A stretch of DNA of 64,000 bases, taken from positions 1 through 64,000 of the forward strand of contig NZ_PTJD01000004.1 of assembly GCF_002934625.1 (NCBI RefSeq), written 5' to 3'. Shown in pieces: positions 1 through 14,583 of this stretch. The notes beneath the pieces were generated by a model, which saw only the letters and a list, made by a program, of their open reading frames with translations, ran no database searches and was not told the origin of the DNA. Source of the DNA: Kineococcus xinjiangensis (lineage in GTDB: Bacteria > Actinomycetota > Actinomycetes > Actinomycetales > Kineococcaceae). Position numbers and translations under genes: made by a program. Numbering within the stretch: position 1 is the stretch's first letter; the number at the start of each line of letters is the position of its first letter.

Positions 1-66
1 GTCGAGGCCGAGCAGGCTCACTACGCTCACCACCAGACCCCGACACCGGTCGGAGCCTCAGAGTAG
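1..66 (+). CDS. C-terminal end of an unidentified protein (partial)
   Basis: The first frame of the window is open from the edge and stops at TAG 64-66, giving 21 residues that end in TPVGASE. It runs just upstream of greA on the same strand. In mycobacteria the gene upstream of greA encodes a DUF4307 membrane protein, but nothing in these few residues confirms that identity. The tail is too short to assign a function, and it could also be a chance open frame. Confidence 0.3.
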   Translation, partial: VEAEQAHYAHHQTPTPVGASE

Positions 67-100
67 GAAGTCTCCGGACTCGCCGGGGCGGTTCACCTGG

Positions 101-565
101 TTGACCCAGGACGCCTACGACCGGCTGAAGGAGGAGCTGGAGCACCTCTCCGGCCCCGCCCGCACGGAGCTCGCGAAGCGCATCGAGTCCGCCCGCGAGG
201 AGGGCGACCTGAAGGAGAACGCCGGCTACCACGCGGCGAAGGAGGAGCAGGGCAAGCAGGAGCTGCGCATCCGCCAGCTCCGGCACCTGCTGGAGAACGC
301 CCGCGTGGGCGAGGCGCAGGTCGACGCCTCCGGCGCCATCGTGCCCGGCATGGTCGTGACCGTGGACCTGGCCGGGGACGACGTGACGTTCCTGCTGGGC
401 AGCCGCGAGGGGGCCGGCGACTCCGACCTCGACGTCTACAGCGAGCGCTCCCCCCTGGGTGCGGCGATCGTCGGGCAGAAGCCCGGCGCCGAGGTGTCCT
501 ACACCGCACCCAACGGCCGGAAGATCCCCGTGAAGATCAAGGCCGCGAAGCCCTACACGGGCTGA
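101..565 (+). CDS. greA: Transcription elongation factor GreA
   Basis: GreA enters the RNA polymerase secondary channel and stimulates cleavage of backtracked RNA so stalled complexes can resume. The 154 residues carry the N-terminal coiled coil with the acidic tip (EEGDLKENAGYHAAKEEQ) and the C-terminal FKBP-like globular domain ending in PVKIKAAKPYTG, matching the family's usual length of about 155-165. The start is uncertain. TTG 101 is the only standard start codon in frame, yet the usual actinobacterial T-W-L-T-Q motif is readable just before it (ACC TGG TTG ACC CAG) and no ATG, GTG or TTG lies further upstream. The true N-terminus may therefore be longer, or the upstream bases may hold a sequence error. 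It faces ilvA across a strong hairpin. Confidence 0.93.
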   Translation: MTQDAYDRLKEELEHLSGPARTELAKRIESAREEGDLKENAGYHAAKEEQGKQELRIRQLRHLLENARVGEAQVDASGAIVPGMVVTVDLAGDDVTFLLGSREGAGDSDLDVYSERSPLGAAIVGQKPGAEVSYTAPNGRKIPVKIKAAKPYTG

Positions 566-577
566 GCACCGCGCGCG

Positions 578-616
578 ACGACGGCGCCGGACCCCGACGG
601 GGACCGGCGCCGTCGT
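578..616. terminator. Bidirectional hairpin between greA and ilvA
   Basis: A perfect 13-base stem (578-590 with 604-616), plus an inner CCCC/GGGG stem, lies between the convergent stop codons of greA and ilvA. There is no T-tract, as is common for actinobacterial terminators. It can form on either strand. Confidence 0.7.
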
Positions 617-632
617 GCTGCCCGGCTCGCCG

Positions 633-1979
633 CTAGTGCCGGGCGGCCGGCTCCGGCTCGGCCATCGCGGTGATGCCGAAGCCCGCCGCCCGCAGCCGCT
701 CGACGATGTGGTCGCGGTGCTCCGGCCCGCGCGTCTCCACCTCCAGGCGCACCTGCACCTGCCCGATCTCCAGGCCCGGGTCGGTGCGGGCGTGCCCGAC
801 GTCGACGACGTTGGCGTCCGCGGCGGCCACGTCCTGCAGCAGCCGCACCAGCCCGCCCGGCTTGTCGGGGATCGTGACCTGCAGGGTGACGTAGCGCCCG
901 GCGGCGGCGAGGCCGTGCTGGAGGACGCGGTGCAGCAGGAGGGGGTCGATGTTGCCGCCGGAGAGGACCGCGACGGCCGGCGTCTCCACCTCCACCACCC
1001 CGTCGAGCAGCGCCGCCACGGCCGCCGCGCCCGCGGGCTCCACGACCAGCTTGGAGCGCTCCAGCAGCAGCACCAGGGCGCGGGAGAGCCCCTCCTCGGA
1101 GACGGTGACGACGTCGTCCACCAGGTCGCGGATCACGGCGAACGGCACGTCCCCCGGCCGGCCCACCGCGATGCCGTCGGCCATCGTGCTCATGCGGGGC
1201 AGCGCCACGGGGCGGCCCGCGCGCAGGGACTCCGGGTAGGCGGCGGCCTGCTCGGCCTGCACCCCGACCACCCGGATCGGCCGTCCCTCGGCGTTGCGCC
1301 TGCCCTCCAGCGCCGCCGCGACACCCGCGACGAGGCCCCCGCCGCCGGTGCAGACCAGCACCGTGCGCACGTCGGGGCACTGCTCCAGGACCTCCAGGCC
1401 CACGCTGCCCTGCCCGGCGACGATGTCGGGGTGGTCGAAGGGGTGGATGAGCACCGCCCCCGTCTCCTCGCCGAAGCGCCGCGCCTCGACGAGGGCGTCG
1501 TCGATGTTGCGGCCGTGGAAGCGCACCTCGGCGCCGTAGCCGCGGGTGGCCTGGACCTTCGGGATGGGCGCGCCCTCGGGCATGAAGACGGTGGCCCGGA
1601 TGCCCAGCAGGCGGGCGGCCAGCGCCACGCCCTGGGCGTGGTTGCCCGCGCTGGCGGCGACCACGCCGAGGGCGCGCTCGGCCTCCGACAGCCGCGCGAT
1701 GCGCACGTACGCGCCGCGGATCTTGAAGGAGCCGGCCCGCTGGAGGTTCTCGCACTTCAGGTGCACCGGGCCGCCGACGCGCTCGGACAGCGCCCGGCTG
1801 TGCAGCAGCTGGGTGCGGCGGACGACCGAGTCCACCAGCTCCCGCGCCGCGAGGACGTCCTCGCGGCGGACCCTCGGCACCTCGGGCGCAGCCCCCGCCG
1901 TCCCGCCCGGCTGTTCCGCCCCCCGCCCGGTCGAGACCTCGTCGTCCGCCGCTCCGCGGTCCTGCACCGCCTCGTCCAC
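633..1979 (-). CDS. ilvA: Threonine ammonia-lyase (threonine dehydratase)
   Basis: This PLP enzyme deaminates threonine to 2-oxobutanoate, the entry step to isoleucine; it acts in the cytosol. The 448-residue protein has the fold-type II core with the PLP lysine in AGSFKIRGA (about K86), the ASAGNHAQG loop, the glycine-rich phosphate-binding loop CTGGGGLVAG, and a C-terminal ACT-like domain (about residues 375-448, starting VTLQVTIPDKPGG). That architecture is the shorter biosynthetic/catabolic hybrid type with one ACT domain, so allosteric control by amino acids is likely. The GTG start at 1979 overlaps the TAG of the upstream AI-2E-family transporter by one base, so the two are probably translationally coupled. 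The first 37 residues are non-conserved and a later start is possible. Confidence 0.92.
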   Translation of the reverse strand: MDEAVQDRGAADDEVSTGRGAEQPGGTAGAAPEVPRVRREDVLAARELVDSVVRRTQLLHSRALSERVGGPVHLKCENLQRAGSFKIRGAYVRIARLSEAERALGVVAASAGNHAQGVALAARLLGIRATVFMPEGAPIPKVQATRGYGAEVRFHGRNIDDALVEARRFGEETGAVLIHPFDHPDIVAGQGSVGLEVLEQCPDVRTVLVCTGGGGLVAGVAAALEGRRNAEGRPIRVVGVQAEQAAAYPESLRAGRPVALPRMSTMADGIAVGRPGDVPFAVIRDLVDDVVTVSEEGLSRALVLLLERSKLVVEPAGAAAVAALLDGVVEVETPAVAVLSGGNIDPLLLHRVLQHGLAAAGRYVTLQVTIPDKPGGLVRLLQDVAAADANVVDVGHARTDPGLEIGQVQVRLEVETRGPEHRDHIVERLRAAGFGITAMAEPEPAARH

Positions 1980-3244
1980 TACCGCTTCCCTTCCTCCGCC
2001 GCGGCGCCGTCGCCGCGGTCGCTGCCGTGCTGCGCGCCGCCGTCCCGCCCGCTCCCGTCCTCGCCGCTGACGGGCGTCGGCGCCGGCTTGTCCGGCGCGA
2101 GGGGCGCGTCGCTGCGCTCGATCTCGCGGACCTCCTCCGGCGCGTCGCCGTCGCTGGCGATGGTGCTCACGAGCGTGTTCGCCATCGCCACCAGCGGCAC
2201 CGCGAACAGCGCCCCGACGACGCCCACCAGGGTGGCGCCGGCCGCGACCGCCAGGATGACGGCCAGCGGGTGCACGGCGACAGCGTGCCCCATCAGGAAC
2301 GGCTGCAGGACGTGCCCCTCGATCTGCTGGACGAGGATCACGACGCCGAGCATGAGCAGGGCCGTCACCGGCCCGTGGGCCACGAACGCGACCAGCACCG
2401 CCACCGTCCCGGCCAGCAGGGCGCCGACGATGGGGACGAAGGCGCCGAGGAAGACCACCACTCCCAGCGGGAGCGCGAGCGGCACCTGGAGGATCGCGGC
2501 GCCGATCGCCACGCCGATGCCGTCCACCAGGGCCACGACGATCGTGGCGCGCATGTAGTGGATGAGCGTGAGCCAGGAGGCCCGGGCACCGGCGTCCACG
2601 GGCTCCTGTGCGGCCTGCGGCAGCAGGTGCAGGCACCACGACCAGATGCGCCGGCCGTCGAGGAGGAAGAAGAACGCGGTGAAGAGCGCGATGAAGAAGC
2701 CCGCCACGACGTGCCCGGCGGTGACGGCGAAGCCGAGGGCGCCGCTGACGATGGTGCTGCGGTTGGCGACGAGGGCGTCCTGGGCCTGCGCGACGTAGCC
2801 GGAGACCGCCTGGTTGGACAGCTCCAGGGGGCCGTCCGCGAGCCAGCGCTCCACCTCCGCCACGCCCTCGACGGCCTGGTCGCTGAGCTGGGCGAAGCCG
2901 TCGGCCACCTGCTGCCCGACGAGGGTGATGAGCGCCGCCACCGCGGCGATGGCACCCAGCAGGACGACGGTCGCCGCCACCGGGCGCGGCACCCCGCGCC
3001 CGTGGGCGAAGGTGACCATCGGCCCCAGCAGGGCCGCGACCAGCGCGGCGATGAGGACGGGGATGAGGACCTCGGAGACCTTGCTCAGCCCGTAGGCGAG
3101 CAGGGCGATCCCCGCCACGACGACGATGAAGCGCCAGGACCACTCCGAGGCGATGCGCAGGGCGGGTGTGACGTCGGAGTCCCGGTGCACGGGCCGCCAC
3201 ACGACGCGGGTGCTGCCGGAGGCTCGGGGCGGGGGGAGGGCCAT
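1979..3244 (-). CDS. AI-2E family transporter (PerM/YhhT-like membrane protein)
   Basis: Members of this family are multi-span membrane proteins; some export autoinducer-2 and others act as Na+/H+ antiporters, so the substrate here is unknown. The 421 residues show an N-terminal hydrophobic pair (about 35-90), a central soluble stretch (about 115-165) and five or so C-terminal membrane segments with the family signature around GAFVPIVGALLAG and QQIEGHVLQPFLMG. The tail after the last segment is acidic and low in complexity. The ATG at 3244 follows a CAGGAT hexamer (3251-3256) with a six-base gap and no Shine-Dalgarno, which suggests a leaderless message. It is coupled to ilvA by a one-base overlap. 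A link to isoleucine or threonine transport would be speculation. Confidence 0.85.
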   Translation of the reverse strand: MALPPPRASGSTRVVWRPVHRDSDVTPALRIASEWSWRFIVVVAGIALLAYGLSKVSEVLIPVLIAALVAALLGPMVTFAHGRGVPRPVAATVVLLGAIAAVAALITLVGQQVADGFAQLSDQAVEGVAEVERWLADGPLELSNQAVSGYVAQAQDALVANRSTIVSGALGFAVTAGHVVAGFFIALFTAFFFLLDGRRIWSWCLHLLPQAAQEPVDAGARASWLTLIHYMRATIVVALVDGIGVAIGAAILQVPLALPLGVVVFLGAFVPIVGALLAGTVAVLVAFVAHGPVTALLMLGVVILVQQIEGHVLQPFLMGHAVAVHPLAVILAVAAGATLVGVVGALFAVPLVAMANTLVSTIASDGDAPEEVREIERSDAPLAPDKPAPTPVSGEDGSGRDGGAQHGSDRGDGAAAEEGKR

Positions 3245-3261
3245 GCGGGGATCCTGTCGCA

Positions 3262-3390
3262 GCGCCCCTCCGCTCGCAGCGCAGCTCCCCCTCGCTCGCA
3301 GCGCGGCGCCGCCCCCTCGCTCGCAGCGCGGCGCCGCCCCCTCGCTCGCAGCGCGGCGCCGCCCCCTCGCTCGCAGCGCGGCGCCGCGCG
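3262..3390. repeat. 25-base tandem repeat in divergent promoter region
   Basis: Three identical 25-base units occupy 3301-3325, 3326-3350 and 3351-3375. Each begins gcgcggcgccgc and ends ctcgctcgca. A partial unit follows to 3390 and two degenerate, shorter units precede from 3262. The array fills most of the gap between the AI-2E-family gene and the ChlI-like ATPase gene and ends just before the latter's -10-like hexamer. Confidence 0.9.
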
Positions 3391-3393
3391 ACG

Positions 3394-3399
3394 TACCGT
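3394..3399 (+). promoter_or_regulatory. Leaderless -10 hexamer TACCGT for the ChlI-like ATPase
   Basis: TACCGT lies seven bases before the GTG at 3407, so transcription would start at or next to the start codon. No Shine-Dalgarno is present. It supports the choice of that GTG. No convincing -35 is seen because the tandem repeat occupies that position. Confidence 0.5.
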
Positions 3400-3406
3400 C
3401 ACATCC

Positions 3407-4855
3407 GTGACTCCCGGTGCCGCCGCCACCCTCGCCCCGCCGTCGCCGCCGGCGGCGCTGCCCACCACCGTGGGAGCGCTGCGCGGCTCCGGCCACCAGC
3501 ACGTCAGCGTCAAGGAGGAGCTGCGGCGCAACCTGCTCGCGCGGATGCGCGCGGGCGAGGCGCGCTTCCCCGGCGTCGTCGGCTTCGACGAGACCGTGCT
3601 GCCGGAGCTGGAGCGCGCCCTGCTGGCCGGTCACGACGTCGTCCTCCTCGGCGAGCGCGGCCAGGGCAAGACGCGCCTGCTGCGCTCCCTGGTCGCGCTG
3701 CTGGACGAGTGGACGCCCGTCATCGAGGGCAGCGAGCTCAACGAGCACCCCTACGCCCCCCTCACCACGGCCTCGCGCCGGCGGGCGGCGGAGCTGGGCG
3801 ACGACCTGCCCGTGTCGTGGCTGCACCGCAGCCTGCGCTACGGGGAGAAGCTCGCCACGCCCGACACCTCCGTCGGCGACCTCATCGGCGACGTCGACCC
3901 GGTGAAGGTGGCGGAGGGACGCACCCTCGGCGACCCCGAGACCATCCACTTCGGGCTGGTGCCGCGCACCAACCGCGGGATCTTCGCGGTCAACGAGCTG
4001 CCGGACCTCGCCGAGCGCATCCAGGTGGCGCTGCTCAACGTGCTGGAGGAGCGCGACGTGCAGGTGCGCGGCTACCAGCTGCGGCTGCCGTTGGACCTGC
4101 TGCTGGTCGCCAGCGCCAACCCGGAGGACTACACCAACCGCGGCCGCATCATCACGCCGCTGAAGGACCGCTTCGGGGCGGAGGTACGCACCCACTACCC
4201 GCTCGAGGTGGAGCTGGAGGTGGAGCTGGTCCGCCAGGAGGCGCGCCTCGTCGCGGAGGTGCCCGAGCACCTCCTGGAGATCCTGGCCCGCTTCACCCGC
4301 GGCGTGCGGGAGTCGCCGGCGGTGGACCCCGCCTCGGGCGTGTCGGCGCGGTTCTCCATCGCGGCGGCGGAGACCGTGGCCGCCGCGGCGCTGCGCCGCT
4401 CCGCGCTCGCCGGCGAGGACGACGCCCCCGTGGCCCGCGTCGGGGACCTGGCGGCGGTGGTCACCGTGCTCGGGGGCAAGGTCGAGTTCGAGCAGGGCGA
4501 GGAGGGGCGGGAGATCGAGGTCCTGGCCCACCTGCTGCGCTCGGCGATCGCGGAGACGTTCCGGGCGCGGCTGGCCGGCGCGGACCTGTCCGGGTTCCTG
4601 GAGGCGGTGCGCGACGGGCGGACGGTGGAGACGGGCGACCTGGTGCCCGCCCGGCGGCTGCTGGAGCAGCTGGGCACGGTGACGGGGCTGGGCAAGGTGC
4701 TGGAGCGCCTCGGCGTGGACGACGCCCCCACGCCCGGGCAGGCCGCGGCCGGGGTGGAGTTCGTGCTGGAGGCGCTGCACCTGACGCGGCGGCTGGCGAA
4801 GGACGACCTCGACGGCGGCCGCAGCGTCTACGCGGCGCGCACCCCGCAGATCTAG
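3407..4855 (+). CDS. ChlI-like AAA+ ATPase (magnesium-chelatase subunit I family, MoxR-like)
   Basis: The 482-residue protein has a Walker A at about residues 82-90 (GERGQGKTR), the RGIFAVNELPDL segment typical of chelatase I subunits in place of a plain Walker B, and sensor motif ASANPEDYTNRGRIITPLKDRF. Actinobacteria carry such a ChlI-like ATPase beside a VWA-domain protein although they make no chlorophyll; together they probably form a metal-insertion or remodelling machine whose client is unknown. Here the VWA partner is not adjacent but lies at 14584-16587. The GTG start is supported by a leaderless -10 seven bases upstream. The last codons and stop fall inside the left copy of a 24-base direct repeat. 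Confidence 0.85.
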   Translation: MTPGAAATLAPPSPPAALPTTVGALRGSGHQHVSVKEELRRNLLARMRAGEARFPGVVGFDETVLPELERALLAGHDVVLLGERGQGKTRLLRSLVALLDEWTPVIEGSELNEHPYAPLTTASRRRAAELGDDLPVSWLHRSLRYGEKLATPDTSVGDLIGDVDPVKVAEGRTLGDPETIHFGLVPRTNRGIFAVNELPDLAERIQVALLNVLEERDVQVRGYQLRLPLDLLLVASANPEDYTNRGRIITPLKDRFGAEVRTHYPLEVELEVELVRQEARLVAEVPEHLLEILARFTRGVRESPAVDPASGVSARFSIAAAETVAAAALRRSALAGEDDAPVARVGDLAAVVTVLGGKVEFEQGEEGREIEVLAHLLRSAIAETFRARLAGADLSGFLEAVRDGRTVETGDLVPARRLLEQLGTVTGLGKVLERLGVDDAPTPGQAAAGVEFVLEALHLTRRLAKDDLDGGRSVYAARTPQI

Positions 4856-4865
4856 GGTTCGCCGC
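4842..4865 (+). repeat. 24-base direct repeat, left copy
   Basis: This 24-base sequence (ccccgcagatct then agggttcgccgc) is repeated without mismatch at 6594-6617. The left copy contains the stop codon of the ChlI-like gene. The two copies bracket a 1.7-kb segment holding only the CHRD protein and sortase genes, as expected of attachment-site or duplication scars. Confidence 0.9.
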
Positions 4866-5063
4866 TCAGTCGCAGCCCGCCCGCGGGGGCGTTCCGCCCA
4901 CGGGCGGGAAACGTCACGGAACTGAAAAGCCGCAGGCCCGATCTCCGAATGCACGCCCGGCCCGCGTCCCTATCGTCGATTCCACCGGGTGCGCGTCCGG
5001 GGGGACGCGCGTCCACCACCGGTCGGCCGCTGGAGCAGCCGACCCGACGGGATGGAGACCACC

Positions 5064-5822
5064 GTGTCCTCGATGAAGCGCACGCTCGCCCTCGTGCCTG
5101 CCGCCGGACTGCTCGCGCTCGCCGCGGCCGGCCCTGCGACGGCCGCCACCGGCGACACCTACCAGGCGCAGTTGTCCTCGATGAACAAGTCCGGCGCCTC
5201 GGGCACCGCCCAGGTGACCGTGCTCGACGGCAACCGCCTGCGCGTGCAGATCAACTCCCGGGGGTTCCTCCCCGGCCAGCCGCACGCCGCGCACATCCAC
5301 TTCGCCCCCGAGGCGAGCCATTCGTGCCCGACGGCAGCGGCCGACACCGACGGCAACGGGTTCATCTCCACCCCGGAGGGCATCCCGGCCTACGGGGAGA
5401 TCAACCTGTCGCTGACCACCGAGGGCGACGTGTCGCCGGCGGCGGCCCTCGCCGTGGAGAACTTCCCCACCGCCGACGACGGGACGATCTCCTACGACCG
5501 GACCTTCGACATCCCGTCGACGCTGGACCCCGCGAACCTCGGCGACGCCGTCATCGTGCAGCACGGCATCGACGTCAACGGCAACGGCATGTACGACATG
5601 GAGGCACCGATCGGGGCCAGCCCGCTGAACCCGCAGCTGCCCGCCGAGGCGACCCACCCGGCCGCCTGCGGCGCGCTGAACATGATGCCCGCCGGTGGTG
5701 CCGCCACCGGTGCCGGCAGCACGGCCGGCTCCCTCGACACGGGCCTCCTGGCCGGTGGCGCGCTGGCGATGGCCGCCGGTGGCGTCCTGCTGCTGCGTCG
5801 CCGCACCGCCGGCGAGCAGTGA
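5064..5822 (+). CDS. Secreted CHRD-domain surface protein with sortase-type tail
   Basis: The 252-residue product starts with a signal peptide (MKRTLALVPAAGLLALAAAG within the first 25 residues, cleavage near ATA-ATG). Residues about 35-190 resemble a CHRD domain, including AAHIHFAPE and VIVQHGIDVNGNGMYD, a fold seen in secreted proteins with histidines that could bind metal. The C-terminus has SLDTG (223-227), a hydrophobic segment and RRR, a degenerate LPxTG-like wall-sorting signal. GTG 5064 was chosen because GGAG sits six bases upstream; ATG 5052 and ATG 5073 are alternatives. The sortase gene starts inside its stop codon (TGATG), so this is very likely that enzyme's substrate. Both lie between 24-base direct repeats. 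Confidence 0.8.
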   Translation: MSSMKRTLALVPAAGLLALAAAGPATAATGDTYQAQLSSMNKSGASGTAQVTVLDGNRLRVQINSRGFLPGQPHAAHIHFAPEASHSCPTAAADTDGNGFISTPEGIPAYGEINLSLTTEGDVSPAAALAVENFPTADDGTISYDRTFDIPSTLDPANLGDAVIVQHGIDVNGNGMYDMEAPIGASPLNPQLPAEATHPAACGALNMMPAGGAATGAGSTAGSLDTGLLAGGALAMAAGGVLLLRRRTAGEQ

Positions 5823-6574
5823 TGCGGCGCGGCGCCCGGCGATCGGGCTCCGCGCCCGCCGGGCGCCGCGGACGCGGGCGGCTCCTCCTCGCCGCCCTGC
5901 TGATCGGCGCCGGTGGCGCGGCGACCACGGCGGCCCTGCTCGGGAGCGGCGGTCCGCCGCAGCCCACGGCTGCGGCGGCCGGCTCGGCCCCGGTGGCCGC
6001 CGCGGCCCGGCCGGAACCACCGTCGGTTCCGTCCCCCACGCCGCCCGCTCCGCCGGCACCGGTGCCGGCGGCCGCTCCGGTGGCGGGGGCCGCCCCGGCC
6101 GCGACCGCAGCGGCGTTCCCCGCGGCCCCGCCACCGCGACACCTGCGCATCCCCGCGATCGGGGTGAGCGCCGACCTCATCACCGTCGGGCTGACGGCCG
6201 ACGGCGCTCTCGAGGTGCCCAGCGGGCCGGACTACGACAGCCCCGCCTGGTACCGCGACAGCGCCACCCCCGGCAGCATCGGCGCGGCGCTCATCGAGGG
6301 GCACGTCGACAGCCACGACGACGGGCCCTCGGTCTTCTACCACCTCGGCCGTCTCGTCCCCGGCGACCTCATCGAGGTCACCGGGGAGGACGGTGTCGTG
6401 CGCGCGTTCAGCGTCGAGGGCGTGCGGACGTACCCGAAGGCGGACTTCCCGGCCCTGGACGTCTACGGGATCACGGACCACCCCGCCCTCCGGCTCATCA
6501 CCTGCGGGGGCGAGTTCGACCGCGACAGCGGCCACTACCGCGACAACGTCGTGGTGTTCGCCCGGGCCGTGTGA
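5822..6574 (+). CDS. Class F sortase
   Basis: Sortases are membrane-anchored cysteine transpeptidases that cleave a sorting motif and attach the protein to the cell wall. The 250 residues comprise an N-terminal membrane anchor (about 20-42), a long Pro/Ala linker (about 45-105) and the sortase barrel. The catalytic triad is visible: H161 in EGHVDS, C228 in LITCGG and R240 in HYRDN. The compact barrel and single domain fit the class F group found in actinobacteria. ATG 5822 overlaps the TGA of the CHRD protein, so the two form a substrate-enzyme pair. The module is flanked by direct repeats and splits what looks like an older convergent gene junction. Confidence 0.87.
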   Translation: MRRGARRSGSAPAGRRGRGRLLLAALLIGAGGAATTAALLGSGGPPQPTAAAAGSAPVAAAARPEPPSVPSPTPPAPPAPVPAAAPVAGAAPAATAAAFPAAPPPRHLRIPAIGVSADLITVGLTADGALEVPSGPDYDSPAWYRDSATPGSIGAALIEGHVDSHDDGPSVFYHLGRLVPGDLIEVTGEDGVVRAFSVEGVRTYPKADFPALDVYGITDHPALRLITCGGEFDRDSGHYRDNVVVFARAV

Positions 6575-6593
6575 GTTCCGGTGCGCTCGGGCG

Positions 6594-6617
6594 CCCCGCA
6601 GATCTAGGGTTCGCCGC
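6594..6617 (+). repeat. 24-base direct repeat, right copy
   Basis: Exact second copy of the sequence at 4842-4865. It contains the stop codon and last four codons of the cysteine-rich gene read on the minus strand. In the left copy the same bases carry the stop of the ChlI-like gene, so before the insertion the two genes were probably convergent and shared this sequence. Confidence 0.9.
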
Positions 6618-6933
6618 CCCAGTCCCGGAACGTCATGTTCGGGCAGACGAGGTCGCAGGCGCTGACGCCGGCGGCCTCCGCCTGGGCGGCCGCGGCCTCG
6701 GCGCGCTCGGCGCACAGCGGGCACACCTCGGCGCCGTCGGGGAGGGCGAGGTGGATCTGCTGCTCGCGGCAGTCGACGCCGCAGAGGGCGTACATCGGCC
6801 CGTCCGTGGCGGCGGCGAGCAGGGCGTCGCAGCAGCCGATGTGCAGGACGTCGTCGGCCGCCGGGGAGGGGGCGGGCTCCGCCGGGGCGGGAGCTGGGGC
6901 GCCGGCTCCGGTGGCGGCGGCGATGAAGCGCAC
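6604..6933 (-). CDS. Small cysteine-rich protein, function unknown
   Basis: A 109-residue protein starting at GTG 6933. The first third is Ala/Pro-rich; then come HIGCCDALL, ALCGVDCREQQIHLAL, EVCPLCAERA and SACDLVCPNM. The paired cysteines (CGVDC and CPLC) look like a zinc-ribbon or other metal site. I do not recognise the family. The stop overlaps the right-hand direct repeat, and the gene converges on the sortase. No clear Shine-Dalgarno precedes the start, so the N-terminus is uncertain. Confidence 0.6.
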   Translation of the reverse strand: MRFIAAATGAGAPAPAPAEPAPSPAADDVLHIGCCDALLAAATDGPMYALCGVDCREQQIHLALPDGAEVCPLCAERAEAAAAQAEAAGVSACDLVCPNMTFRDWGGEP

Positions 6934-7021
6934 GGGAGCAGCGTACGGGCGGGGGCCCGCGCCCGTACGGGTCCGCCGGTCCGGGCCCGGGACCTGGCCA
7001 CGCGATCATCGGAGGGTCACA

Positions 7022-9664
7022 ATGGATCCGTTCGGTGATCCCGGCGCCCGCCCGGTCGGGACGGAGGGAGAACGCGACCGCAACGTGCGGGGGGAGAACG
7101 CGATGGGGCGGACGGCGGACGGGCTCGAGCGGGCGCGCCTGGAGGCGCTGCACCGCTACGCCATCCTGGACACCCCTCCCGAACCGGTCTTCGACGACCT
7201 CGCGGCGATCGCCGCGAGCATCACGGGCTGCCCGACCGCGCTCATCGGCTTCGTCGACGCCGACCGGCAGTGGTTCAAGTCGGTCCTGGGCTTCCCCTTC
7301 ACGCAGTCCCACCGCTCGATCTCCTTCTGCGACCACACGATCCGCCAGCCCGACGTCCTCGTCGTGGAGGACGCCACCGCCGACGACCGCTTCGCCGCCA
7401 ACCCCCTGGTCACCGCTGAACCGCGGGTCCGCTTCTACGCCGGCGCACCGCTCGTGACGCCCGACGGGCAGCGCCTCGGCACGATCTGCGGCATCGACTA
7501 CGCCCCGAAGGTCCTCGACGCGGACAGCCGGAAGGCGCTGGCCCGGCTGGCGCAGCAGGTCGTGCGGGAACTGGAGATGCGCCGGCAACTGGCGGACCTC
7601 ACCGCCACCGTCACGACGCACCGGCGTGCCGACGCGCCCGAGATGCTGCAGGCCATCCTCGACGGCTCCCCGGCGATCGTGTCCGTGAAGGACCCCGAGG
7701 GCCGCTTCCTCCTCATCAACCGCGCCTGGCAGGAGCGCTTCGGTTTCTCCCGCGAGGAGGCCCTCGACCACGACGACGAGGACCTCTTCGGGCCGGAGGC
7801 GGCCCGCAAGCACCGCGGGGACGACCTGGAGGTGCTGGGCAGCGACCGGATCCAGCACGTGCAGGAGCACCTGCCCCCGGGGCGGACCGACCGGACGTAC
7901 CAGACCTCCCGTTTCGCGCTGCGGAACCGGTTCGGGGAGCCCTACGCGGTCTGCGCGATGGCCCACGACGTCACCGACCGCGTGCACGCCGAGGAGGCCG
8001 CCCGGCGCAACAGCGACCGGGCCGAGCAGGTGATGGCCGGTGCCCTCGACGGCGTGGTCACCTTCAGCGCCGACGGGGCCGTCACCGGGCTGAACCCCGC
8101 CGCCGAGCAGGTCTTCGCCACGACCGCGGAGGAGGCCAGGGGCCGCGAGGTCGCCGGGCAGCTGCTGGCACCGATCTTCCGGGAGGACTTCCGCCACGCG
8201 CTCGCGGCCCACCTGCAGGGGGCCGCCGCGGACCTGGTGGGCAAGCGGGTGGAACTGCTCGGCCGGCGTGGCGACGGGGAGCCGTTCCCCGTCGAGATGA
8301 CGGTCGTCGACGTGCGCGACGACCCCGGGCGCTTCGTCGCCTTCGTCCGCGACGTGAGCGAGCGCCGGCACGCCGAGGAGCGGCTGCGCCACCTCGCCGA
8401 GCACGACCCGCACACCGGGCTGGCCAACCGGGCGACGTTCCTGCACCTGCTCGCCACGCAGGCGGACGCCGGATCCGTCGGGCACGAGCGCGGCAGCCTC
8501 CTGCTGCTGGACCTCGACTCCTTCAAGCACATCAACGACACCTTCGGCCACCGGGCCGGCGACGACTGCCTGCGCCACGTCGCCGAGGTGCTGTGCGACC
8601 GGGTGCGCGACGGCGACGTGCTCGCGCGGCTCGGCGGGGACGAGTTCGCGCTGCTCCTGCCCGGTGCCGGCACGGCCACCGCGCGCGCGGTGGCCGAGTC
8701 GCTGCTGCAACTGCTGCGGGCACGGCCCCTCGTCGTCGACGGGCGGCCCATCCGGGTCACCGCGAGCGTGGGCGTGGCACCCGTCACCGCGGGGGTGGAA
8801 CCGGAGGAGCTGCTGCACGCCGCCGACGCGGCGATGTACGAGGCGAAGCAGCTGGGCCGCGACCGCGTCGCCGTCTTCAGCGACGTGGCCGTGGCCGCCC
8901 GCACCTCCGCCCTGCACGTCAGTTCCGCGCAGCACCTGCGCGACGCGTTGGCGGAGGAGCGCTTCACCCTGTACGCGCAGCCCATCCACGACATCACGAC
9001 CGGCCGGGTCGCCTTCCAGGAATTGCTGATCCGCATGGAGGACGACGACGGGGCCCTGGTGCCGCCCGCGGCGTTCCTGCCCGCAGCCGAGCGCTTCGAC
9101 CTCATCCAGAAGATCGACTGCTGGGTGGTCTCCCAGGCGGCCCGGTTGCTGCGCCGGCGGACGACCGACGGCTCCGTCCCGCAGCTGCACGTCAACCTCT
9201 CCGGCCGGTCGCTGTCGGACCTGGCGGTGCTGGAGTGCATCGAGCGGCAGCTGCAGGACGTCGACGCCTCCCGCATCGTCTTCGAGATCACGGAGACGTC
9301 CGCCGTGACGCACCTCGACATGGCCGTGGCGTTCACCCAGCGGCTGGCCGCGCTGGGGTGCGGGCTGTCCCTGGACGACTTCGGCGCCGGGTACGCGTCG
9401 TTCTACTACCTCAAGCACCTGCCCGTGCAGTCGGTGAAGATCGACGGGGAGTTCGTCCAGGGCATCCTCACGGACCGCCTCGACCGGGCGGTGGTCCGCG
9501 CCACCGTCTCCCTGGCCGCGGACATGGGCTACCGCACGATCGCGGAGTACGTGGAGAGCGCCGCGCTGCTGGAGGAGCTGCACGACTACGGCGTCGACTA
9601 CGTGCAGGGCTACCACATCGGGCGGCCGGTGGCGGCGGTGGAGGGGCTGCACCTGGTGGTGTGA
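7022..9664 (+). CDS. GAF-PAS-PAS-GGDEF-EAL cyclic-di-GMP turnover protein
   Basis: An 880-residue cytosolic sensor. A GAF domain (about 45-185, with LDTPPEPVFDDLA and GTICGID) is followed by two PAS domains (about 205-320 and 335-445), a GGDEF domain (about 455-610) and an EAL domain (about 640-880). The cyclase motif is intact (GGDEF at 538-542) with an inhibitory I-site RDGD five residues before it. The phosphodiesterase motif reads ELL at 667-669, which keeps the metal-binding glutamate, and EITE, DDFGAGYAS and VKIDGEFV are present. It could therefore make and degrade c-di-GMP, with the balance set by its sensors. ATG 7022 is chosen for the GGAGGG Shine-Dalgarno five bases upstream. The gene appears to be a single transcription unit. 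Confidence 0.9.
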   Translation: MDPFGDPGARPVGTEGERDRNVRGENAMGRTADGLERARLEALHRYAILDTPPEPVFDDLAAIAASITGCPTALIGFVDADRQWFKSVLGFPFTQSHRSISFCDHTIRQPDVLVVEDATADDRFAANPLVTAEPRVRFYAGAPLVTPDGQRLGTICGIDYAPKVLDADSRKALARLAQQVVRELEMRRQLADLTATVTTHRRADAPEMLQAILDGSPAIVSVKDPEGRFLLINRAWQERFGFSREEALDHDDEDLFGPEAARKHRGDDLEVLGSDRIQHVQEHLPPGRTDRTYQTSRFALRNRFGEPYAVCAMAHDVTDRVHAEEAARRNSDRAEQVMAGALDGVVTFSADGAVTGLNPAAEQVFATTAEEARGREVAGQLLAPIFREDFRHALAAHLQGAAADLVGKRVELLGRRGDGEPFPVEMTVVDVRDDPGRFVAFVRDVSERRHAEERLRHLAEHDPHTGLANRATFLHLLATQADAGSVGHERGSLLLLDLDSFKHINDTFGHRAGDDCLRHVAEVLCDRVRDGDVLARLGGDEFALLLPGAGTATARAVAESLLQLLRARPLVVDGRPIRVTASVGVAPVTAGVEPEELLHAADAAMYEAKQLGRDRVAVFSDVAVAARTSALHVSSAQHLRDALAEERFTLYAQPIHDITTGRVAFQELLIRMEDDDGALVPPAAFLPAAERFDLIQKIDCWVVSQAARLLRRRTTDGSVPQLHVNLSGRSLSDLAVLECIERQLQDVDASRIVFEITETSAVTHLDMAVAFTQRLAALGCGLSLDDFGAGYASFYYLKHLPVQSVKIDGEFVQGILTDRLDRAVVRATVSLAADMGYRTIAEYVESAALLEELHDYGVDYVQGYHIGRPVAAVEGLHLVV

Positions 9665-9688
9665 GCACCACCGGGTGCAGCCCCGGCC

Positions 9689-11038
9689 TCAGGCCGCGGT
9701 CGTGTGCTTGTCGGCGATGGACAGCGCCTCGTCGAGGGCGGCGAGCCCCTCCTCCACCTCCGCCGGGCTGATCGTGCACGGCGGCACCACGTGCAGGCGG
9801 TGGAAGTTGCTGAAGGACAGCACGCCGGCGTCGAGCAGGGCGGCGGTCAGCTCCTTCATCGCGGGGCTGGTGCCGCCGTAGGGGGCCAGCGGCTCCTTCG
9901 TGGCGCGGTCGGTGACGAGTTCCAGCGCCCAGAACACGCCGCGGCCGCGGACCTCGCCGATGACCGGATGCCGCTCCGCCAGCGCCCGCAGCCCGGGGCC
10001 GAGGACGTCCTCGCCGACGCGGGCGGCGTTCTCGACGATGCCCTCCTCCGCCATCGCGGTGATGGTGGCGACGGCCGTGGCGCACGCCAGGGGGTGCCCG
10101 GAGTAGGTCAGCCCGCCGGGGAAGGGGCGCTCCGCGAACGTCGCCGCGACGTGCGGGGAGATGGCGACACCGCCGAGGGGGACGTAGCCGGAGGTGACGC
10201 CCTTGGCGAAGGTCAGCAGGTCGGGGACGACGCCCTCGTGCTCGACGGCGAACCAGCGGCCGGTGCGGCCGAACCCGGCCATCGTCTCGTCGGCCACGAG
10301 GACGATGCCGTGGCGGTCGCAGATCTCCCGCACGCCCGCGAGGTAACCCGGCGGCGGCACCATGATGCCCGCGGTGCCCGGGATGGTCTCCAGCACGATC
10401 GCGGCGATGGTGCCAGGCCCCTCGAACGCGATGAGCTGCTCGAGGTGCTCCAGCGCCCGGTCGCGCTCCTCCTCCTCCGTGCTCGCGTGGAAGGCGGTGC
10501 GGTACAGGAAGGGACCGAAGAAGTGCACCGTGCCGGCGCTGCCGTAGTCGTTGGGCCAGCGGCGGGGATCGCCGGTCAGGTTGATCGCGGTCGACGTGCC
10601 GCCGTGGTAGGAGCGGTACTGCGACAGGACCTTGTAGCGGCCCGTGTGCAGCCGCGCCATCCGCACCGCGTACTCCACGGCCTCGGCCCCGCCGTTGGTG
10701 AAGAAGATCCTGTCCAGTTCGCCGGGGGTGCGCTCGGCGATGAGGCGGGCGGCCTCGCCGCGCTGGTCGTTGGCGTGCTGCGGCGCCACGGTGCACAGCA
10801 CGTCGGCCTGCGCCTTGATGGCGGCGACGACCTTGGGGTGCTGGTGGCCGATGTTGGTGTTGACGAGCTGCGACGACAGGTCCAGCAGCCGACGGCCGTG
10901 GCCGTCCCAGACGTAGCAGCCCTCCGCGCGGGTGATGACGAGCGGGTCGAGGGCGGCCTGCGCCGACCAGGAGTGGAACACGTGGGCGCGGTCCAGCTCG
11001 TAGGTGCGGCGGGCGGCCGGGTCGGTGGGAACGGGCAC
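9689..11038 (-). CDS. Class III (omega) aminotransferase
   Basis: A 449-residue PLP aminotransferase of the ornithine/beta-alanine group, which moves an amino group from an omega-amine to a keto acid. The PLP lysine is K279 in LTFAKGVTSGY, preceded by the cofactor-binding ADETMAGFGRTG. The N-terminal HVFHSWSAQ and the GAEAVEYAVRMAR segments match beta-alanine or taurine:pyruvate-type enzymes. The GTG start has an AAGGAGGAG Shine-Dalgarno. It lies 27 bases downstream of the CoA-acylating semialdehyde dehydrogenase gene on the same strand. The two enzymes in series would turn beta-alanine or beta-aminoisobutyrate into malonate or methylmalonate semialdehyde and then acyl-CoA. The exact substrate cannot be read from sequence. 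Confidence 0.88.
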   Translation of the reverse strand: MPVPTDPAARRTYELDRAHVFHSWSAQAALDPLVITRAEGCYVWDGHGRRLLDLSSQLVNTNIGHQHPKVVAAIKAQADVLCTVAPQHANDQRGEAARLIAERTPGELDRIFFTNGGAEAVEYAVRMARLHTGRYKVLSQYRSYHGGTSTAINLTGDPRRWPNDYGSAGTVHFFGPFLYRTAFHASTEEEERDRALEHLEQLIAFEGPGTIAAIVLETIPGTAGIMVPPPGYLAGVREICDRHGIVLVADETMAGFGRTGRWFAVEHEGVVPDLLTFAKGVTSGYVPLGGVAISPHVAATFAERPFPGGLTYSGHPLACATAVATITAMAEEGIVENAARVGEDVLGPGLRALAERHPVIGEVRGRGVFWALELVTDRATKEPLAPYGGTSPAMKELTAALLDAGVLSFSNFHRLHVVPPCTISPAEVEEGLAALDEALSIADKHTTAA

Positions 11039-11065
11039 GTCTCCTCCTTCAGCAGTCGGTGGGTC

Positions 11066-12604
11066 TCAGGCGTTCTGCGGGAAGCCGAGGTTGAGGCCGC
11101 CGTGCGAGGGGTCCAGCCAGCGCCCGGTGACGACCTTGCCCCGGGTGAAGAACTGCACGCCCTCGGTGCCGTGGGCGTGGTTGTCGCCGAACAGGGACGC
11201 CTTCCAGCCGCCGAAGGAGTAGTACGCCACGGGGACGGGGATGGGCACGTTGATGCCGACCATGCCGACCTCCACCTCGTTCTGGAAGCGCCGGGCGGCG
11301 CCGCCGTCGTTGGTGAAGATGGCGGTGCCGTTGCCGTAGGGGTTGGCGTTGATGAGGTCCAGGCCCTCCTGGTACGAGCCGACCCGCACGAGCGACAGCA
11401 CGGGGCCGAAGATCTCGTCGGTGTAGATCGACATGTCCGGGCGGACCTTGTCGAACAGGGTCGGCCCGAGCCAGAACCCCGCCGCCTCGCCGTCCGGCTG
11501 GACGGTGCGGCCGTCGACGACGAGTTCGGCGCCGGCGGCCTCCCCGGCGTCGACGTAGGAGCGCACCTTGTCGCGGTGGGCGCCGGTCACGAGCGGCCCC
11601 ATGTCGCAGCCGCGGCGGCCGTCGCCGGTGCGCAGGGTCGCGACGCGCTCCTTGATCTTGGCGATGAGCTCGTCCGCGACGGGTTCGACGGCGACGAGGG
11701 CGCTGATGGCCATGCACCGCTCCCCCGCCGAGCCGAACCCGGCGTTGACGGCAGCGTCGGCGGCGAGGTCGAGGTCGGCGTCGGGCAGCACCAGCATGTG
11801 GTTCTTCGCCCCGCCGAGGGCCTGCACGCGCTTGCCGGCGGCGGTGCCGCGCTCGTAGACGTACTTCGCGATGGGGGTGGAGCCCACGAACGAGATGGAC
11901 TTCACGTCCGGGTGGTCGAGGAGGCCGTCGACGGCGACCTTGTCCCCGTGGACGACGTTGAAGACGCCGTCGGGCAGGCCCGCGCGCTTCCACAGCTCGG
12001 CGACGAACATCGTGGCCGAGGGGTCCTTCTCGCTCGGCTTGACGACGACGGTGTTCCCGCAGGCGATGGCGACGGGGAAGAACCACATCGGGACCATCGC
12101 GGGGAAGTTGAACGGGCTGATGATGCCGACGACGCCGAGGGGCTGGCGGATGGAGTAGACGTCGACCTTCGTGGAGGAGTTCTCCGAGAACCCGCCCTTG
12201 AGCAGGTGCGGGATGCCGCAGGCGAACTCCACGACCTCCTGGCCGCGCATGACCTCCCCGGCGGCGTCGGAGAGGACCTTGCCGTGCTCGGCGGTGATGA
12301 TCGCCGCGAGTTCGTCGCGGGAGGCGTTGAGCAGCTCCCGGAAGGCGAAGAGGATCTGGGTGCGCCTGGCGAGGGAGGTCTCGCGCCAGGTGGCGAAGGC
12401 CCGCTTGGCGGCTGCCACGGCCTCGTCGACGTCGGAGGGCTCGGCGAACGCGACGCGCTTGGTGACCTCGCCCGTCGCGGGGTCGTAGACGTCACCGAAG
12501 CGGCGCCCGGAGCCCTCGGCCGGTGCGCCGGCGATCCAGTGGTGCACCACGGGCGCCTCCGCGGTGCCGGTGGTCACGTCGGGCTTCTCGGCGGTGCTGG
12601 TCAC
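11066..12604 (-). CDS. mmsA: CoA-acylating methylmalonate-semialdehyde dehydrogenase
   Basis: This enzyme oxidises methylmalonate or malonate semialdehyde to propionyl-CoA or acetyl-CoA with release of CO2, the last step of valine, beta-alanine or pyrimidine breakdown. The 512 residues show SPFNFPAMVPMWFFP, the NAD site GSTPIAKYVYERG, the catalytic cysteine C297 in GSAGERCMAIS, and the C-terminal SFGGWKASLFGD typical of MmsA/IolA. It heads an operon with the aminotransferase and is divergent from a PucR-type regulator across 153 bases, which likely controls it. Confidence 0.92.
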   Translation of the reverse strand: MTSTAEKPDVTTGTAEAPVVHHWIAGAPAEGSGRRFGDVYDPATGEVTKRVAFAEPSDVDEAVAAAKRAFATWRETSLARRTQILFAFRELLNASRDELAAIITAEHGKVLSDAAGEVMRGQEVVEFACGIPHLLKGGFSENSSTKVDVYSIRQPLGVVGIISPFNFPAMVPMWFFPVAIACGNTVVVKPSEKDPSATMFVAELWKRAGLPDGVFNVVHGDKVAVDGLLDHPDVKSISFVGSTPIAKYVYERGTAAGKRVQALGGAKNHMLVLPDADLDLAADAAVNAGFGSAGERCMAISALVAVEPVADELIAKIKERVATLRTGDGRRGCDMGPLVTGAHRDKVRSYVDAGEAAGAELVVDGRTVQPDGEAAGFWLGPTLFDKVRPDMSIYTDEIFGPVLSLVRVGSYQEGLDLINANPYGNGTAIFTNDGGAARRFQNEVEVGMVGINVPIPVPVAYYSFGGWKASLFGDNHAHGTEGVQFFTRGKVVTGRWLDPSHGGLNLGFPQNA

Positions 12605-12745
12605 GGTGCCTCCTCGTCGCTGCGGCGGGTTCGCGACGCGCGAGGGCGGCGGACCCCGGTCCTGTCCCGAGCGTGGCGGGCGGTCACGGACACCGGTACC
12701 TGCACAGTGTCAGCAACGAACCCATGAGCTTTACACCCTGTCACC

Positions 12746-12751
12746 TACACT
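12746..12751 (+). promoter_or_regulatory. Leaderless -10 hexamer TACACT for the PucR regulator
   Basis: TACACT ends six bases before GTG 12758 and no Shine-Dalgarno is present, so the message is probably leaderless. The divergent region also holds TGTCA-containing half sites (around 12710 and 12740) that could bind the regulator, but the pattern is weak. Confidence 0.5.
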
Positions 12752-12757
12752 CCCCGG

Positions 12758-14422
12758 GTGCCGACGACGCTCGCCGACGTCCTCCGCCTCGACGTGCTGC
12801 GAGTGGGCGAACCGGAGGTCCTCTGCGGCGGCGCCGCCCTCGGCGTAGCGGTGCGCTGGGTCCACGTGGGCGAGGTCGCCGACCTCACCGGCCTGCTCCA
12901 GGGCGGCGAGCTGATCCTCACCACCGGCCTCGCCCTGGCGCCGGGAGGCCCCGCCGCGGCCGACCTCGACGGCTACCTCACCCGCCTGCACGCCGCCGGC
13001 GCCTGCGGGCTCGTCGTCGAGCTGGGCGCCAGCCTGCCCGCCGTGCCCGACGCCCTGGTGCGCACCGGGCGGCGGCTCGGCATGCCCGTCGTGGCGCTGC
13101 ACCGCCGCGTCCGCTTCGTGGCCGTCACGGAGGCCGTGCACGCCCGCATCCTCGACGAGCAGACCGCCCTGCTGCGGCTGTCCCAGCAGGCCCACGACGC
13201 GTTCTCCCCGCTCAGCACCGAGGGCTCCACCCCCGAGGAGATCGTGACGCGCGCCGCCGGCCTCGCCGGTGCACCCGTCGTCCTGGAGGACCTCGCCCAC
13301 CACGTCGTGGCCTTCTCCGCCCTCGACGAACCCGCCTCCGAGCTGCTGCGGGACTGGGAGCACCGCTCCCGGGCCGCCGCCGACCACGGCGGCACCGGGC
13401 GCTGGGGGCCGGAGCGGTGGCTGACCACCCCCGTCGGGCCGCGGCGGCAGCGCTGGGGCCGGCTCGTGCTGCCCGGCCCGGCGGCCCTGGACGTGCCCGC
13501 CGCGGCGATGGTGCTGGAGCGGGCGGCGGAGGCCCTGACCGTGAACCGCCTCGTGGAGCGGGACCTCGTGGTGCTGCAGCACCGCGCCCAGGGCGACCTG
13601 CTCGCCGACCTCGTGCGCGGGACCGCGGAGCAGGCGGAGCTGCTGGCGCGCGCCGGCGCCCTCGGCCTGCCGCCGGCACCGGCCTACCTCGCCGTGGCGC
13701 TGGCCGACGCGGCGGTGCGGGGTCCGCGGCGGCGCGGCGGGGCGCGCACCGCGGGCAGCGACGCCCTCGCCGTGCACCGCCGCGACGTGGTCCTCGCCGA
13801 GCAGGTGGCGCTCGCCCTGCGCGGCACCCGGACCCCGGCGCTGGTCTCCCCCGTCGACGCGGGCGTCGTCGCCGCCCTCGTGGCGCTGCCCGCGGCCCGC
13901 CCCGAGGCCGCGGAGCGACTCCTCGGCTCCCTCGTGGCGGCGCTGGAGCGGGACTCCGCGCCCGCCTCGCGGGTGCTGGGCGTGGGGCCGGTGGTGGGCG
14001 CGCTCGCCGACGCGGGCGGTGCGCTGTCCGAGGCCCGGCACGTGGCCGAGGTCGCCGCGGCCACCGCCCGCCCGGGGCAGCGCCCGTGGTTCCGCAGCAC
14101 CGACCTGCGCCTGCGGGGCCTGCTGACGCTGCTGCGCGACGAGCCGCGGCTGCTGGCGTTCTCCGAGGCGGAGCTGGGGCCGCTGCTGGCCCGCGACGAC
14201 GCCCGCGGCGCCGAGCTGCTGACGCTGCTGCGGGCGTTCCTGGACTGCGGCGGCAACAAGAGCGAGCTGGCCCGCCGCAGCCACCTGAGCCGCCCGGCGC
14301 TGTACGCGCGGCTGGCGGCCCTGGAGCGCCTCCTCGGGGTCGACCTGGACGACGGGGAGTCGCGCACCTCCCTGCACGTGGCGCTGCTGGTCCGCGACGT
14401 GCACGCGGGCCGACGGGGCTGA
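12758..14422 (+). CDS. PucR-family transcriptional regulator
   Basis: A 554-residue regulator with an N-terminal PucR purine-catabolism-like sensor domain (about 1-125, LADVLRLDVLRVGEPEVLCGG), a GGDEF-like middle segment (about 290-420) and a C-terminal PucR helix-turn-helix (about 490-545, GGNKSELARRSHLSRPALYARL). PucR proteins activate or repress catabolism of purines, amino acids or related nitrogen compounds. It is divergent from mmsA and the aminotransferase gene and is the obvious candidate to sense the omega-amino acid or its semialdehyde. GTG 12758 is supported by a leaderless -10. Two copies of a palindromic element follow the stop codon. Confidence 0.88.
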   Translation: MPTTLADVLRLDVLRVGEPEVLCGGAALGVAVRWVHVGEVADLTGLLQGGELILTTGLALAPGGPAAADLDGYLTRLHAAGACGLVVELGASLPAVPDALVRTGRRLGMPVVALHRRVRFVAVTEAVHARILDEQTALLRLSQQAHDAFSPLSTEGSTPEEIVTRAAGLAGAPVVLEDLAHHVVAFSALDEPASELLRDWEHRSRAAADHGGTGRWGPERWLTTPVGPRRQRWGRLVLPGPAALDVPAAAMVLERAAEALTVNRLVERDLVVLQHRAQGDLLADLVRGTAEQAELLARAGALGLPPAPAYLAVALADAAVRGPRRRGGARTAGSDALAVHRRDVVLAEQVALALRGTRTPALVSPVDAGVVAALVALPAARPEAAERLLGSLVAALERDSAPASRVLGVGPVVGALADAGGALSEARHVAEVAAATARPGQRPWFRSTDLRLRGLLTLLRDEPRLLAFSEAELGPLLARDDARGAELLTLLRAFLDCGGNKSELARRSHLSRPALYARLAALERLLGVDLDDGESRTSLHVALLVRDVHAGRRG

Positions 14423-14438
14423 GCCACCCGCCCGACCC

Positions 14439-14522
14439 CGCCCAACCCGGCGCCCGATCCCGGAAAGGGTCCTTTCCGTGCGCCCAACCCGGCGCCCGGC
14501 CCCGGAAAGGGTCCTTTCCGGG
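14439..14522. repeat. 42-base tandem pair carrying the GGAAAGG/CCTTTCC palindrome
   Basis: Two 42-base units (14439-14480 and 14481-14522) differ at only a few positions. Each ends in a palindrome with core GGAAAGGGTCCTTTCC, centred at 14469-14470 and 14511-14512. The arms are 8 and 11 bases long around a two-base centre. The same palindrome, again as a pair centred exactly 42 bases apart, recurs at 42661-42726. It lies between two genes on the same strand and could fold as tandem hairpins in RNA or act as a protein-binding site in DNA. Confidence 0.85.
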
Positions 14523-14571
14523 GCCGGAGGGCGGGAGGGGCGGGGAGGAGGTGGAGCGGGCGGTGCGGGCG

Positions 14572-14577
14572 TAGCGT
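14572..14577 (+). promoter_or_regulatory. Leaderless -10 hexamer TAGCGT for the VWA gene
   Basis: TAGCGT lies six bases before ATG 14584. A GGAGGAGG run at 14544-14552 is too far from the start to serve as a Shine-Dalgarno, so leaderless translation is favoured. Confidence 0.45.
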
Positions 14578-14583
14578 CGGGGC

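Follow-up and report, generated by a model that had tools for sequence, protein, structure and literature searches.

Small segments that vary between genomes while lying between conserved genes have been described in bacteria, and some of them carry short repeats at their borders. In the available portion of a study of three species, 10-18% of such segments were repeat-flanked, the repeats being mostly shorter than 30 bp and read mainly as endpoints of slippage deletions, with homology-assisted illegitimate integration discussed for other loci (PMC2884548). Homology-facilitated illegitimate recombination has also been reported in conjugation, as excerpted from PMC3240628, and half of gene-turnover hotspots are described as carrying no evidence of mobile elements in the available text of PMC5635113. 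Here we describe a locus in the window, by which we mean the whole 64,000-nucleotide stretch analysed (positions 1 to 64,000 of contig NZ_PTJD01000004.1, deposited as Kineococcus xinjiangensis), where genes for a CHRD-type secreted protein and a class F sortase are bracketed by an exact 24-bp direct repeat. The repeat is a real feature, found only at this locus and surrounding an ordinary substrate-sortase operon, and most likely represents the scar of an insertion into a variable interval.

Like the segments of PMC2884548, the one considered here is small, lies between conserved genes, has repeats shorter than 30 bp and shows no integrase. As presented in the available portion of that work, however, those segments were compared between members of one species, for which empty alleles could be aligned, and were read mainly as deletions between the repeats, whereas the window segment is a complete operon from one genome of its genus. 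The gene-turnover hotspots of PMC5635113 are likewise similar in having conserved borders and variable content, and no mobility gene was seen in the window interval; those hotspots, in the text available, rest on within-species statistics, whereas the present comparison concerns one place in ten genomes of a sister genus, with variation that partly reflects two resident gene families.

The repeated sequence, CCCCGCAGATCTAGGGTTCGCCGC, occupies 4842-4865 and 6594-6617 on the plus strand, at a spacing of 1,752 bp, and the identity of the two copies confirms what a first-pass annotation of the letters had claimed. Its assignment of the gene ends is likewise borne out by the coordinates. Specifically, the left copy contains the final codons and TAG stop (4853-4855) of a gene for a ChlI/MoxR-like AAA ATPase (3503-4855, plus strand; the start is uncertain, perhaps 3407), whereas the right copy contains the final codons and stop (CTA, 6604-6606) of a minus-strand gene (6604-6933) for a cysteine-rich protein of 109 amino acids without convincing relatives. 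When positions 1-4865 are fused to 6618 onward, thereby removing one copy and the presumed inserted segment of 1,728 bp (4866-6593), both outer frames remain intact and convergent, with stops that overlap by 4 bp in a shared CTAG, just as the annotation had proposed. The comparison genomes were 11 members of the sister genus, called Kineococcus here by inference, the window genome being alone in its own genus; the ChlI locus was readable in ten of them (all except G002). Gene calls in the compared loci and at the junction come from a simple codon model that may miss or misplace genes, and product names were given by eye. At six of these ten loci, the ChlI stop and that of a neighbouring gene overlap by 4-13 bp, which makes the rebuilt geometry a usual one among them.

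The 24-mer is neither a chance match nor a common motif. With up to three mismatches allowed, no third copy exists in the 4.6-Mb genome and none in the 11 Kineococcus genomes, and a search for further gene pairs flanked by it, as the annotation had suggested, found none in the genome. Exact pairs of at least 24 bp spaced 200-5000 bp apart number 42 in 480 kb of the same genome (the window plus stretches of 400 kb and 16 kb). Forty of these have a companion pair nearby at equal spacing and therefore belong to repeated sequence, leaving two isolated cases, namely a 484-bp tandem repeat and the pair at the present locus. When 1,000 equally large blocks were drawn at random from 400 kb, a single block was bracketed by a 24-bp match and no block by a longer one; that one block is what can be said for coincidence as the origin of the pair, and, set against the solitary standing of the pair outside repeated sequence, it leaves that explanation a practically negligible probability. 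Similarity extending past the 24 bp had seemed apparent by eye and was rejected, the flanks on either side being no more alike than expected by chance (p ~0.46). A role of the repeat as terminator or RNA was also rejected, since it folds no better than shuffled sequences and no terminator-like or promoter-like sites were found.

Between the copies lie two plus-strand genes that overlap at the stop of the first and the start of the second, encoding the CHRD-type secreted protein (5052-5822, 256 amino acids) and the class F sortase (5822-6574, 250 amino acids). The former ends in a putative sorting signal made up of MPAGGAATG, a hydrophobic stretch and an RRR tail, and it exceeds the cut-off of the GVDTG_CTERM model (NCBIfam NF058571) only barely, at 29.9 bits versus 29. 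The sortase reaches 175.9 bits against a cut-off of 166 with the class_F_sortase model (NCBIfam NF033748), which upholds that half of the first-pass label. A TCGG cysteine, a GHVD histidine and a YRDN arginine are legible in its sequence, and we presume that they hold their usual sortase roles. The other half of the label, "CHRD protein", comes through homologs and not from a Pfam match of the protein's own: no match to Pfam CHRD (PF07452) was obtained at E values up to 1, and the best Pfam match was a sub-threshold one to Sod_Cu (E 0.014). In an alignment of 19 proteins (18 of 26 CHRD homologs plus the window protein), PF07452 is matched by 16 at E <=0.01, the window protein being outside those 16, and GVDTG_CTERM is also matched by 16 of the 19. 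The P, G, T and G of the signal P-x-G-x-x-x-T-G are invariant across the aligned proteins; one homolog outside the alignment (L146) has a signal lacking the T. The sortase would anchor the CHRD-type protein encoded beside it. A second CHRD-type gene in the same genome (L130 7647-8306) has no C-terminal sorting signal and no adjoining sortase.

This operon is conserved well beyond the window. CHRD homologs were detected in 92 of 396 genomes sampled from the order (E <=1e-15, six candidates scored per genome), and a class F sortase lies directly downstream at no fewer than 80 of 103 CHRD loci, in 73 of 80 genomes, the window genome included. The count covers 80 of the 92 positive genomes, leaving out 14 CHRD loci in 12 genomes, and uses the stronger sortase matches listed together with one weak match chosen for adjoining a CHRD locus (G345); the other 53 weak sortase matches listed gave no additional pair. 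Pairing of CHRD-type proteins with class F sortases is thus widespread. Among the matches listed, the neighbours of the pair vary from family to family, although some families, such as f10 and f18, have a shared set. As in other class F sortase and substrate pairs, both model cut-offs are reached in the window and the order runs from substrate to sortase. The window pair differs in its signal, PAGGAATG as against GG(V/A)(D/Q/E)TG in most relatives, and in its bracketing repeats, since none of 14 other CHRD-sortase pairs has a bracketing repeat longer than 13 bp within 800 bp, making the window the sole case among 15 tested. Partial CHRD matches were also found in eight plasmid records; in the one examined, a linear plasmid of 173 kb from Streptomyces sp. 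NBC_01324, the CHRD-type gene is paired with a class F sortase gene (L179 7899-9496). No paper linking the CHRD domain with a sortase was found in a single full-text search of one open-licence library. In the accessible text of a 2026 paper (PMC13251363), the physiological roles of class F sortases are called unknown, and a strain stripped of all four class F sortases showed no change. The frequency of the pairing offers a likely native substrate for this sortase class.

The place occupied by the operon is itself variable. In the window, the interval from the ChlI-like gene to an MmsA-type dehydrogenase gene (11066-12604, minus strand, named by eye) is 6,210 bp long and holds the CHRD-sortase pair, the cysteine-rich gene, a gene for a PAS-GGDEF-EAL protein (7022-9664, plus strand) and one for a class III aminotransferase (9689-11038, minus strand). 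The CHRD gene, the window-type sortase and the cysteine-rich gene are absent at all ten readable Kineococcus ChlI loci, and a search of the 11 Kineococcus genomes at E <=0.001 matched neither the CHRD-type nor the cysteine-rich protein. MmsA forms the far border in nine of the ten Kineococcus loci, which display seven arrangements: one interval is empty at 57 bp, eight measure 381-2,434 bp, and the remaining one had not reached MmsA after 11 kb. The empty interval (G005) represents a different junction from the ChlI/cysteine-rich one of the window. The others contain a 105-residue gene (G003), a membrane protein by itself (G004, G006 and G007), with a 109-residue gene (G010) or with a transporter (G011), an aldo-keto reductase with a 115-residue gene (G001 and G009), or, where MmsA was not reached, a surface-type protein of 1,946 amino acids with copper genes (G008). 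The aldo-keto reductase, the transporter, the surface protein with copper genes and the window content are clear newcomers. Exact repeats longer than 13 bp were found in none of the nine Kineococcus intervals tested. A VWA-domain gene (14584-16587, plus strand, in the window) adjoins the ChlI-like gene in four compared loci outside the family, whereas the two are separated by MmsA and other content in the window (4855-14584) and in nine of ten Kineococcus loci. In Kineococcus sp. TRM81007 (L120 6964-16054), this very place is occupied by a 1,946-residue surface-type protein, followed by genes for CsoR, a copper chaperone and a copper ATPase, as judged by eye.

We lean, with some confidence, towards a single insertion of the substrate-sortase operon at overlapping convergent stops, made without an integrase and leaving the 24 bp as its scar. 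A short segment carrying the CHRD-type gene and the class F sortase gene would have entered once, at the overlapping stops of the ChlI-like and cysteine-rich genes, on the downstream side of ChlI, a place of variable gene content in the family. With 24 bp of target sequence duplicated on insertion, neither neighbour would have lost its final codons or stop. The likeliest route is that incoming DNA recombined illegitimately or through short homology, and the repeats would then be a scar and possible deletion endpoints rather than attachment sites. The first-pass proposal that a module had entered at a gene end, as integrating elements do, is supported as to entry, given that the frames rebuild, the pair is missing from ten Kineococcus loci and the repeat is no common motif; it is not supported as to mobility, and nothing indicates that the two-gene unit moves by itself. 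The annotation had named two findings that would tell against it, namely all relatives carrying the module at the same place with no empty-site allele, or a repeat that is a common genomic motif, and neither turned up. Its statement that no integrase is present also holds: none of the 12 Phage_integrase matches in the genome (10 above cut-off) lies on the contig of the window, and no integrase or transposase frame was seen by eye between the copies, a model search not having extended to serine recombinases or transposases. With its readable scar, the locus looks like a clean example of a whole small operon set down where two convergent genes end. The broader idea that class F sortase and substrate pairs are compact, integrase-free cassettes that enter overlapping convergent stops by an unknown machinery with a defined 24-bp target duplication is, in our judgement, very improbable.

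Several observations weigh against a single insertion. The ChlI protein ends in VYAARTPQI in the window versus VYGS in all ten Kineococcus copies, which implies at least one further change at that gene end and hence an additional step. Two families recur in the interval, the membrane protein in five genomes and the 105-115-residue protein in four, so the variation is partly gain and loss of residents, and the interval lengths exaggerate how much of a hotspot the place is. Class F sortase genes occur at other places in eight of the 11 Kineococcus genomes; sortases as such are therefore not new to the family. The accessible part of PMC2884548 favours deletion endpoints over insertion scars for repeats of this kind. 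A foreign composition of the pair was considered and rejected, as its G+C content, third-position G+C (GC3) and codon use fall within the 9th to 88th percentile of 316 genes. Both proteins form long, unplaced branches in trees, which leaves the donor open and makes an old presence followed by loss in Kineococcus possible. Ku was not found in the draft genome, making end joining an unlikely route. The genus of the window is represented by one genome, and an empty allele of the exact junction was not seen. In this respect, the cysteine-rich protein returned two weak matches apart from its own in 59 genomes, a scan of genome contigs (from which very near genomes may be left out) found nothing for it and hence no sister genome, and the same kind of scan with the ChlI tail returned matches in Kineococcus and in genera further away, and nothing closer. 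This genome and nine of ten relatives searched have a ComEC-type domain, which alone says nothing on competence. Ku is patchy in the family as a whole (seven of 12 genomes).

Integration by a Campbell-type crossover would yield the same arrangement if a circular molecule had carried the pair together with a short match to the ChlI/cysteine-rich junction, the repeat then being the duplicated homology. A direct repeat at both borders is what such a crossover predicts, and the distant pair on the Streptomyces plasmid demonstrates that plasmid carriage exists. The donor, however, would need to have carried a junction found in no other genome of the family, no plasmid-type gene lies between the copies, and 24 bp is shorter than the 30 bp cited in the available portion of PMC2884548 as the minimum for recombination by RecA in E. 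coli; we regard this course as unlikely. The pair might instead be an older resident, with the repeat made later when the cysteine-rich gene arrived and one gene end was copied to the other border. The odd ChlI tail would reflect that event; an end unlike ten Kineococcus copies must have been rebuilt at least once, and both the unremarkable composition and the open tree placement suit long residence. Nevertheless, the two gene ends are contained in each copy and both frames are restored at the junction, an outcome that copying of one end would produce only if the borders happened to coincide, and this history appears distinctly unlikely.

In restoring a gene end, the direct repeats resemble the sites used by integrases, a feature that integrative elements at the 3' ends of genes share with the locus. 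That likeness, together with the Phage_integrase matches elsewhere in the genome, speaks for a remnant or cargo of an integrative element, served by an integrase in trans and with the 24-mers as attachment sites. Against it, the window differs from such elements in having a contig without a tyrosine-integrase match and no second unit with the site, no further 24-mer copy occurs in the genome or the family, the 14 other pairs have no bracketing repeat longer than 13 bp, and phage and viral-contig collections, which were searched with the CHRD protein and not with the sortase, contain nothing that matches it. An integrative origin is accordingly rated as quite improbable. On the same grounds, i.e., a 24-mer confined to the locus and bracketing nothing else, pairs elsewhere that lack such repeats, a contig without a tyrosine-integrase match and no phage or viral match for the CHRD protein, the first-pass suggestion of a mobilised cassette or element remnant is not supported, and a mobile cassette was rejected as the principal explanation.

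Other repeats were encountered in the same genome. Directly upstream of the ChlI-like gene, a 25-bp G+C-rich unit is repeated five times (94% matches) at window positions 3265-3387. Pairs of similar G+C-rich sequences, 33-61 bp long and 73-74 bp apart, are found at L152 18295, L163 10393 and L168 7572, and their presence on three separate contigs possibly marks a dispersed repeat family.

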